Of a DNA stretch of 64,000 nucleotides, positions 58,921-60,353 are shown one piece after another. Position numbers and translations under genes: made by a program. Origin of the DNA: Candidatus Uhrbacteria bacterium (GTDB lineage Bacteria; Patescibacteriota; Patescibacteriia; 2-12-FULL-60-25); the NCBI GenBank assembly GCA_018499965.2, contig JAHBAS020000024.1, positions 1 to 64,000 on the forward strand, given 5' to 3'. Every line of letters starts with the position of its first letter. The stretch's first letter is position 1. The notes beneath the pieces were generated by a model. That model saw only the letters and a program-made list of their open reading frames with translations, was not told where the DNA came from and ran no database searches.

Positions 58921-58930
58921 CGCTCCACTC

Positions 58931-58978
58931 AATGCCCTCTCCGGCTTCCGGACGAGGGCATTGGCATCGTTGACGAAG
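58931..58978 (+). repeat. 48-bp hairpin + TTGACG module, copy 1
   Basis: Identical over 48 bp to 59799-59846. It has a 9-bp stem (AATGCCCTC/GAGGGCATT) around a C/G-rich loop, followed by GGCATCGTTGACGAAG. The TTGACG serves as -35 of the next transcription unit. Confidence 0.8.
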
Positions 58979-58998
58979 TCTTAAAAAAACCATAAGAT
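58970..58998 (+). promoter_or_regulatory. Promoter of the attenuated NlpC/P60 unit
   Basis: TTGACG (inside the 48-bp module) and TAAGAT spaced 17 nt. The start would be near 59005, 3 nt before the leader-peptide ATG. Confidence 0.65.
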
Positions 58999-59007
58999 AC
59001 AATAATC

Positions 59008-59076
59008 ATGCTCCACACGAAACGAATCGCAACGTGGTCCGGCTTCATCCACTCCTTTTTTATCCCTCTGCCCTAG
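59008..59076 (+). CDS. 22-aa leader peptide
   Basis: An ATG right after the promoter opens a 22-codon frame (MLHTKRIATWSGFIHSFFI, then PLP) that stops 1 nt before the first strand of an attenuator. Such a position is classical for a leader peptide whose ribosome stalls or releases to set RNA folding. The content is not dominated by one amino acid (two Phe in a row, Pro-Leu-Pro end), so the inducing signal is not obvious; a stall at the Pro-rich end or an inhibitor are options. Very short frame, so partly circumstantial. Confidence 0.45.
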   Translation: MLHTKRIATWSGFIHSFFIPLP

Positions 59077-59134
59077 TGGACAGGTTTTGATGTTCAAAAC
59101 CTCAAAATCTGTCCAGCTGGGACAGATTTTTTCT
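59077..59134 (+). promoter_or_regulatory. Transcription attenuator (antiterminator/terminator switch)
   Basis: Three matching strands: GGACAGGTTTT (59078-59088), AAAATCTGTCC (59104-59114) and GGACAGATTTT (59120-59130). Strand 2 pairs fully with strand 1 (one G-U) or perfectly with strand 3. The 2:3 helix is followed by TTC TTTT and forms an intrinsic terminator, and 1:2 would prevent it. A small hairpin GTTTTGA/TTCAAAAC inside can compete with 1:2. Confidence 0.75.
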
Positions 59135-59167
59135 TTTCCCACCCTTCTCTATACAGGTAGAACGATC

Positions 59168-59773
59168 ATGGAATATCGAGCTGTACAGAACCGATCTACG
59201 TTCATTCTCGACGACCTGCAGTTGCCAATCTCGCACGAAGAAGCTATTCGCATCTTAAAAGAAAAAGGCTTCGTCTTTCTCGATATCGACATCGTGAAGC
59301 TTGCTCGATCATGCATCAAGACTTCACGGTATCGACGCGGAGCCAAACCATCCGAAGCCCCTGCAGTAGTAGATTGTTCGAGCTTCATCAAATGGCTCTA
59401 TGGTGAATGCGGTATCTGGCTGCCACGTCGATCCATCCAACAACGAGCATACGGTGAACACATCGACCTTCATGCACTCATGCCTGGCGATATCATCTTC
59501 ACCTCTGGACATATCGATTACTATGACCACGATCCGACAGACGGCGTAGGACACGTCGGTATCTATACCAAAAACCAAACCGTCATTCATGCCGCCAATA
59601 AAAAAGAACATGTCATCGAAACCGAACTCGCGCGCTTTATCAAAGGTAATGCCTTTCGTGGAGCGAGGCGATACATCCCCCAAAACAAAGAAGTACGAAC
59701 CGTTCAAGCGCCAAAAGAAAGAGAAATCGAAATCGCAAACGATCTTCGATGGATAATCCTGCAGTCACTTTAA
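59168..59773 (+). CDS. NlpC/P60-family cysteine peptidase-like protein
   Basis: A 201-aa protein. Residues 70-170 hold the NlpC/P60 core. VVDCSSFIKWLYGECGIWLP carries the catalytic Cys, LHALMPGDIIFTSGH the usual PGD turn, GVGHVGIYTKNQTVIHAAN the catalytic His and the third polar residue. A helical N-terminal section precedes it. No signal peptide is visible, unlike many wall hydrolases, so it may act inside the cell or use another route. It is controlled by an upstream attenuator. The start is the ATG at EYRAVQN; earlier ATGs lie inside the terminator. Confidence 0.8.
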   Translation: MEYRAVQNRSTFILDDLQLPISHEEAIRILKEKGFVFLDIDIVKLARSCIKTSRYRRGAKPSEAPAVVDCSSFIKWLYGECGIWLPRRSIQQRAYGEHIDLHALMPGDIIFTSGHIDYYDHDPTDGVGHVGIYTKNQTVIHAANKKEHVIETELARFIKGNAFRGARRYIPQNKEVRTVQAPKEREIEIANDLRWIILQSL

Positions 59774-59798
59774 ACGCCTGCATGAGCCACCCCTCCTT

Positions 59799-59846
59799 AA
59801 TGCCCTCTCCGGCTTCCGGACGAGGGCATTGGCATCGTTGACGAAG
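59799..59846 (+). repeat. 48-bp hairpin + TTGACG module, copy 2
   Basis: Exact copy of 58931-58978, again between two plus-strand genes, with its TTGACG used as the -35 of the next gene. Confidence 0.8.
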
Positions 59847-59866
59847 CGTCAAATTATCCTTAGGAT
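59838..59866 (+). promoter_or_regulatory. Promoter of the 149-aa gene
   Basis: TTGACG and TAGGAT spaced 17 nt, the same spacing as at 58970. The -10 covers an ATG at 59865 and thus rules it out as start. Confidence 0.65.
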
Positions 59867-59903: not shown

Positions 59904-60353
59904 TTGCTAATCCCGAAACCCGCCTATCGGCTCCGTATCGGCTTCAACTGCCACGAAACCGCCCTTGATGCGACCGTGATCCAAAAGCTCGTCGCCGAAG
60001 GCCATCGCGTAGAATCCATTTCCTTCCACGACCCGCAAGCGCACCGCGCCACTGTCGCCTGGATCGAGGAATACGACATCAGCGTATCAGCGAGAATCCT
60101 TGGAAGAGACATGCATGAGGGTGATATCGCCAAAGATTACGACGTCATTCTTCACGACGATGCGATGCAGGCCGAAGAATACTTTTTATTCGGAACCGTC
60201 CACGTGTATTTCCTCACGCGTACCTCGAACGGCAGCATCGAAACCTCGCCGGGAATCACACACGTTCCGTCCTTTGAAGCGTTCTACGAGCACTTCACTG
60301 CCATCTACCAACGGCAATACCACTACCCCTCCCAAGAAAGGGAACAAACCTAA
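59904..60353 (+). CDS. Unrecognised 149-aa protein with TTG start
   Basis: The TTG start is chosen because GGAGGT lies 3 nt upstream and the nearest in-frame ATG is within the promoter. The protein opens LIPKPAYRLRIGFNCHETAL with a Rossmann-like alternation (AEGHRVESISFHDPQAHRAT; YDVILHDDAMQAEEYFLFGT) and ends with a charged tail. The pattern recalls a response-regulator-like or nucleotide-binding alpha/beta domain, with an Asp pair (HDDAM). No family recognised. It is followed by its own hairpin terminator. Confidence 0.55.
   Translation: MLIPKPAYRLRIGFNCHETALDATVIQKLVAEGHRVESISFHDPQAHRATVAWIEEYDISVSARILGRDMHEGDIAKDYDVILHDDAMQAEEYFLFGTVHVYFLTRTSNGSIETSPGITHVPSFEAFYEHFTAIYQRQYHYPSQEREQT

Follow-up and report, generated by a model that had tools for sequence, protein, structure and literature searches.

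Control of transcription through translation of a short leader is known in several forms. Attenuators of the trp and his type have a short leader frame, followed by RNA that folds into either an antiterminator or an intrinsic terminator, and it is the position of the ribosome on the frame that decides between the two. In another group, comprising TnaC, SecM, ErmCL and SpeFL, the ribosome is arrested by the peptide it is making, a conserved nascent chain with a critical tryptophan. TnaC keeps a fixed distance between this residue and a proline placed before the stop codon, the spacing from tryptophan to last residue being 12, and the termination that it controls is Rho-dependent, at boxA/rut. 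Stalling of the ribosome on a leader peptide also favours antitermination at bmrBCD of Bacillus subtilis, at mef/msrD and at erm. Finally, THF (folate) riboswitches use attenuation to control genes of folate transport and synthesis.

The stretch of DNA analysed here, hereafter the window, comprises 64,000 nucleotides of Candidatus Uhrbacteria bacterium (contig JAHBAS020000024.1, positions 1 to 64,000), from a genome of 1.11 Mb. The Patescibacteria, to which this organism belongs, are for the most part uncultured bacteria with small genomes, and to our knowledge little is known of their gene regulation. Upstream of an NlpC/P60 gene of the window lies a leader that we read, with a probability of about 0.7, as a translation-coupled transcription attenuator, the sensor being a conserved leader peptide of the ribosome-arrest type, in a folate-linked regulon of Patescibacteria. 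With attenuators of the trp and his type it has in common the short leader frame, the competition between antiterminator and intrinsic terminator and the deciding role of ribosome position; it differs from them by the lack of a run of regulatory codons, by a conserved motif with one tryptophan, by folate-related targets and by a nearly leaderless mRNA. With the arrest peptides it shares a nascent chain that is conserved and holds a critical tryptophan; in three long leaders, those of the window, L003 and L004, the distance from tryptophan to last residue equals the TnaC value of 12. Membership in the TnaC family was nevertheless rejected: neither this spacing nor a final proline is conserved, the terminators are intrinsic (28 of 32 long leaders) and the targets are different. 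The likeness to bmrBCD, mef/msrD and erm lies in antitermination favoured by a ribosome stall, while the peptide sequence is unrelated and no resistance gene is targeted. Control of folate genes by attenuation recalls the THF riboswitches, the sensor here being a translated peptide and not an aptamer. The literature that we searched holds no description of the motif, of folate leader peptides, or of leader-peptide attenuation or an arrest peptide in Patescibacteria, and a scan of the window against Rfam at gathering thresholds returned only a tRNA, with no riboswitch or other Rfam family at the leader. Leader-peptide attenuation is a known kind of control; it is the peptide family, the target set and the phylum that are absent from the literature searched and, for the window, from Rfam, which is not proof of novelty.

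The leader transcript and its conserved peptide

All features of the leader, and the nlpC gene that it precedes, lie on the forward strand. A sigma-70-type promoter, TTGACG-17-TAAGAT, is found at 58970-58998; it matches the consensus at 9 of 12 bases, a score that taken alone is not above chance. The transcript start predicted from it, at about 59004-59008, coincides with or closely precedes the leader frame, so that the mRNA would be leaderless or nearly so. This frame, MLHTKRIATWSGFIHSFFIPLP, has 22 sense codons, from the ATG at 59008 to the TAG at 59074-59076. Promoter, frame and the three RNA strands discussed below are placed where the earlier note had put them. The same frame occurs at 44 distinct loci, only four of them with a Shine-Dalgarno-like motif ahead of the start codon. 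Among the 20 best promoters of this collection, 16 have a -10 box whose end lies 6-12 nt ahead of the ATG; a promoter of such score appears in 26% of shuffles, which makes individual promoter calls uncertain.

The promoter belongs to a 71-nt direct repeat (58928-58998 and 59796-59866, 87% identical), which stands on either side of the nlpC unit and has no further copy within the window. Its first 44 nt (58931-58974 and 59799-59842) are identical in the two copies, and it contains a GC-rich hairpin, AATGCCCTC...GAGGGCATT, followed by the TTGACG promoter. The gene after nlpC (59904-60350) is served by its own copy of the repeat and its promoter, and seems to start at a TTG preceded by GGAGG; it gave no Pfam match.

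Leaders of nlpC homologues in other families of Patescibacteria were initially recognised by eye. The motif WS[SG][FY] was then sought in the 400 nt preceding nlpC homologues and was retrieved at 20 of 41 distinct loci, with a start codon always nine codons before the tryptophan; two more nlpC loci (L108 and L112) joined later, and certain nlpC homologues are devoid of such a leader. A frame of this kind is expected by chance about twice in 10,000 per locus, a back-of-envelope estimate that assumes uniform base composition. The nlpC homologue of L014 is preceded by a variant, MLHTRQHRTWSGEI, with glutamate replacing the invariant phenylalanine, perhaps a decayed leader. The consensus reads M-[IL]-x6-T-W10-S-[SG]-F-[VIA], with tryptophan always as residue 10.

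About 800 genomes were also scanned with a fixed-spacing DNA pattern for M-[IL]-x6-[TS]-W-S-[SG]-[FY]. Matches were obtained in 5 of 380 genomes of the phylum, 19 of 334 of the class and 11 of 86 of the order, where the second codon was allowed slightly more freedom, as against 1, 0 and 0 for the reversed pattern in the same three scans. Fixed spacing was adopted because a variable-gap pattern had mixed true matches with chance ones (L089, L090, L092 and L095 were judged to be chance). Over the whole collection T/S9, W10, S11, S/G12 and F/Y13 are each found in 44 of 44 leaders, a figure to be read with its sampling in mind: half of the leaders (22) were found through the nlpC gene and not through the motif, and these provide the independent test of tryptophan at position 10, since the later pattern scans imposed both that position and the WS[SG][FY] core.

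In the window the conserved core is T9-W10-S11-G12-F13 (59032-59046), which comparison with homologues makes the proposed arrest motif and which is the sole copy of its kind in the genome. Wobble positions vary freely among the 44 leaders (ACN for residue 9; TCT, TCA, TCC or TCG for 11; AGY or GGN for 12; TTT or TTC for 13), which indicates that the conserved entity is the peptide. As expected of the leader of a ribosome-mediated attenuator, the sequence comparison thus finds conservation at the amino-acid level across 44 homologues. Beyond residue 13-14 conservation ceases, and in 11 leaders residue 14 is the very last; ends range overall from residue 14 to residue 27, the distance from W10 to the stop codon varies from 4 to 17 codons, and a final proline is rare. 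Being conserved at a fixed distance from the initiator methionine, and showing no run of codons for one amino acid, the peptide suggests arrest by the nascent chain.

Alternative helices and the position of the ribosome

Three strands follow the leader frame: strand 1, GGACAGGTTTT (59078-59088), strand 2, AAAATCTGTCC (59104-59114), and strand 3, GGACAGATTTT (59120-59130), the last continued by a T-rich tail to 59137. Strands 2 and 3 are the 5' and 3' arms of a perfect 11-bp hairpin which, with its T-rich tail, makes the terminator announced by the earlier note. That note also had strand 2 pairing fully with either neighbour: this holds at the level of RNA, where the whole of strand 1 is paired to strand 2, one of the pairs being G-U. 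The antiterminator so formed extends to 14 bp, its 5' arm (59077-59090) starting directly after the leader stop codon and its 3' arm (59102-59115) being the shared strand 2. A local 8-bp hairpin of strand 1, absent from the earlier description, pairs 59083-59090 with 59094-59101; it is compatible with the terminator and competes with the antiterminator. For the 165-nt leader the folding energy is -42.8 kcal/mol, compared with a value of -30.3 +/- 3.2 in shuffles (z -3.85), and relative to shuffles the 1:2 hairpin and the terminator hairpin have z values of -5.4 and -4.2.

Both alternative helices are 93% paired in the six nlpC leaders that can be aligned, with changes on both sides of the stem, and sliding the partners abolishes the signal. 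Such two-sided changes affect three pairs of the antiterminator and five of the local hairpin and terminator together, the local hairpin accounting for three among the six sequences; antiterminator, local hairpin and terminator are all retained in five homologous NlpC leaders. The earlier note had proposed to look for the pairing in homologous leaders, its lack of conservation being what would tell against an attenuator: the pairing is conserved, and covariation is present.

How the RNA would respond to a ribosome was explored by taking, for each leader, the best terminator-like hairpin and computing the probability of its stem in the RNA from the front edge of the ribosome onward. Such a hairpin is present in 28 of 32 long leaders, and antiterminator and terminator exclude each other, as they do in attenuators. 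In a thermodynamic model that assumes a ribosome edge of 16 nt and ignores co-transcriptional folding, the mean probability of the terminator in these 28 leaders is 0.44 with no ribosome (the 5' arm of the terminator being then sequestered, at 0.77), 0.22 when F13 occupies the P site and 0.90 once the ribosome has reached the stop codon; in the leader of the window the last two values are 0.00 and 0.92. The mean shift of 0.67 compares with 0.03 +/- 0.04 for shuffled spacers that keep their dinucleotides, the largest of 60 shuffles reaching 0.15. When the ribosome is swept along the frame, termination is least probable at codons 13-16 (0.19-0.28), at the end of the conserved motif, and exceeds 0.9 from codon 19 on. 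In silico, then, ribosome position selects the structure; in 7 of the 20 NlpC and Vut_1 leaders tested, a ribosome at F13 still left the terminator at 0.5 or more. Together, folding as a function of ribosome position and covariation indicate an RNA arranged to terminate when the leader is completed and to continue when a ribosome pauses where the motif ends. At several loci the competing arm even includes the stop codon of the leader itself, as in L110 (CCGATAAGG vs CCTTATCGG).

No recognisable terminator was found in 13 of the 44 leaders, mostly those of 14 residues (L039, L041, L045, L046, L049 and L018 among them), and no other device stood out clearly in its place. Sequestration of a Shine-Dalgarno sequence was considered for short leaders of this kind and set aside, no consistent pattern emerging and a clear shift being seen in L033 and L046 only.

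Genes behind the leader

In the window the gene controlled (59168-59773, ATG at 59168) encodes a protein of 201 amino acids of the NlpC/P60 family (PF00877, E 3e-16). C70 and H129 are invariant and H141 nearly so, giving the Cys-His core of the family, and the AlphaFold2 model (pLDDT 96) is a confident NlpC/P60 fold, with 7cfl as the best PDB match (E 4e-10). The matches found by sequence and by structure are cell-wall hydrolases, and a role in peptidoglycan recycling is possible. The N-terminus, as read from sequence and model, does not look like a signal peptide. That the leader peptide might be a substrate or precursor for this enzyme was rejected, the same leader being found before unrelated genes.

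Indeed, the first genes at the 44 loci are NlpC/P60 (22), Vut_1 (7), FGase (5), FolC2-like (2), FolB (2), FolC-like (2) and sigma-70-like (1), three being unknown or cut. Behind three of the seven Vut_1 genes comes a FolC2-like ligase, once with a RibD_C/DHFR-like gene in between; one of the two FolC2-like genes that come first is followed by FGase, and the two FolB genes by FolK or FolC2. Pfam supports Vut_1 (PF02592, 6e-40), F420_ligase (PF01996, FolC2/CofE-like), FolB, HPPK, RibD_C/DHFR and FGase (PF05013). For FolC the only basis is a hit to Mur_ligase_M (E 6e-8) together with sequence motifs. L128 scores slightly under the Pfam cut-off for FGase (26.8 vs 28.9 bits), and sequence similarity is all that places L129 and the second gene of L130. 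CT611 of Chlamydia, a member of COG1478 (the CofE family), complements folC of Escherichia coli (PMC1971073). Searches of 22 leader-bearing genomes gave five strong PF01996 genes, every one of them in the leader operon, and HPPK was found in three genomes only, a scarcity that fits salvage of folate over its synthesis in most of them. Family searches found neither HPPK nor PF01996 in the genome of the window, where the link to folate therefore rests on relatives.

The presence of one leader before FolC, FolC2, FolB-FolK, Vut_1 and FGase points to folate metabolism, and the regulon, judged from these family assignments, looks like one of folate salvage and polyglutamylation, not of the cell wall. 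NlpC, FGase and Vut_1, which make up its largest target classes, have no established place among folate genes, and Vut_1 proteins are known for transporting queuosine precursors. At L099, L103 and L109, where Vut_1 genes precede FolC2-like ligases in genomes with no HPPK detected, this branch of the family may import folate instead. Genes resembling N-formylglutamate amidohydrolase, the FGase class, lie behind the leader at L086, L096, L100, L128, L129 and L130, next to a FolC2-like gene at L096 and L130, and their products are possibly folate or p-aminobenzoyl-glutamate hydrolases. The NlpC/P60 enzyme, by virtue of its regulon, would act in folate or gamma-glutamyl salvage, presumably as a cytoplasmic gamma-glutamyl hydrolase. 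At L127 the leader stands before a sigma-70-like protein (Sigma70_r4, E 4e-9), which may link its signal to a wider response in one genome.

What the leader may sense

In the mechanism that we propose, RNA polymerase would start at about 59005 and a ribosome would initiate at the 5'-proximal AUG. If the whole leader were translated, the ribosome at the stop codon would cover the start of strand 1, strands 2 and 3 would form the terminator and transcription would stop before nlpC. A ribosome halted with residues 13-16 in the P site, after T-W-S-S/G-F, would leave strand 1 free to pair with strand 2, and the polymerase would read through. Comparative and folding evidence supports the conservation of the peptide, the alternative helices, the dependence of these helices on where the ribosome stands, and the target gene set. 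Arrest at the motif, which the pattern of conservation suggests, would be what the switch responds to.

The earlier note had seen here a textbook attenuator. Its translation-coupled, leader-peptide nature is strongly supported; the anatomy typical of amino-acid control is not, a single invariant tryptophan inside a conserved peptide taking the place of a run of regulatory codons. Attenuation by tryptophan starvation, with slow decoding of that codon causing read-through, would account for W10 in all leaders, and a stall nearby would favour the antiterminator. It is nevertheless quite improbable: there is one such codon, S11, S/G12 and F13 match W10 in conservation, the codons of residue 12 call for different tRNAs (Ser AGY or Gly GGN), and the genes downstream have no link with tryptophan, nor are they amino-acid biosynthesis genes. 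The same note had imagined a cell-wall peptidase induced by translation stress or inhibitors. The layout, a short leader in which arrest favours antitermination, does match antibiotic-inducible attenuators such as bmrCD (PMC4191407), yet no resistance determinant is present among the controlled families, where folate and glutamyl chemistry recur, relatives carry the leader before folate-type genes and the NlpC/P60 protein begins with nothing like a signal peptide, all of which makes a response to antibiotics that act on the ribosome, as with erm, or to translation stress in general, hard to credit. Just as remote is sensing of queuosine precursors. Codons for His, Asn and Tyr, often found at residues 3-5 (N4 in 23 and H3 in 17 of 44 leaders), are read by queuosine tRNAs, Vut_1 offers a transporter for the precursors, and TGT, counted in leader-bearing genomes only, is present in 22 of 22; against this, FolB, FolK, FolC and FolC2 are foreign to queuosine salvage, residues 3-5 are also often Leu, Ile, Thr or Lys, and the invariant residues lie elsewhere.

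A more serious competitor, if still an unlikely one, dispenses with arrest. Leaderless mRNAs initiate mostly on 70S ribosomes, where formylation is described as more important (PMC7949028), and a leaderless AUG might be used only when formyl-Met-tRNA is plentiful: in folate shortage the leader would stay untranslated, the antiterminator would form and the genes would be on, the sequence of the peptide mattering little. The near-leaderless transcripts without Shine-Dalgarno sequences are in line with this, as are the sequestered terminator arm and intermediate termination predicted for ribosome-free RNA, and Formyl_trans_N is found in 20 of the 22 leader-bearing genomes, with no match in two. 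Initiation taken by itself nonetheless leaves T-W-S-S/G-F and its fixed distance from the methionine unexplained, and places the minimum of termination at zero occupancy instead of at codons 13-16, where the model predicts it. The arrest-type attenuator thus remains our preferred reading. Initiation on 70S ribosomes and its dependence on formylation imply that the leader, whether or not arrest occurs, could signal one-carbon status when translation starts.

Taken with the target genes, this suggests that arrest or initiation would report folate status, for instance by way of fMet-tRNA formylation, which should affect a leaderless AUG, or by means of a folate ligand. We are inclined to doubt, without dismissing it, the bolder proposal that the peptide represents a new class of regulatory nascent chain, sensing folate or one-carbon status on the ribosome and controlling a folate salvage regulon across Patescibacteria. 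Sensing might then depend on a folate ligand lodged within the exit tunnel, or on the formyl group of the peptide's own initiator methionine, nine residues before the tryptophan. If this is right, the folate riboswitch would have its counterpart in a peptide. A short and defined peptide gives a means to ask whether the ribosome reads folate or formylation status, and a peptide sensor common to FolC, FolC2, FolB-FolK, Vut_1, FGase and NlpC/P60 predicts functions in folate salvage for three poorly understood families.
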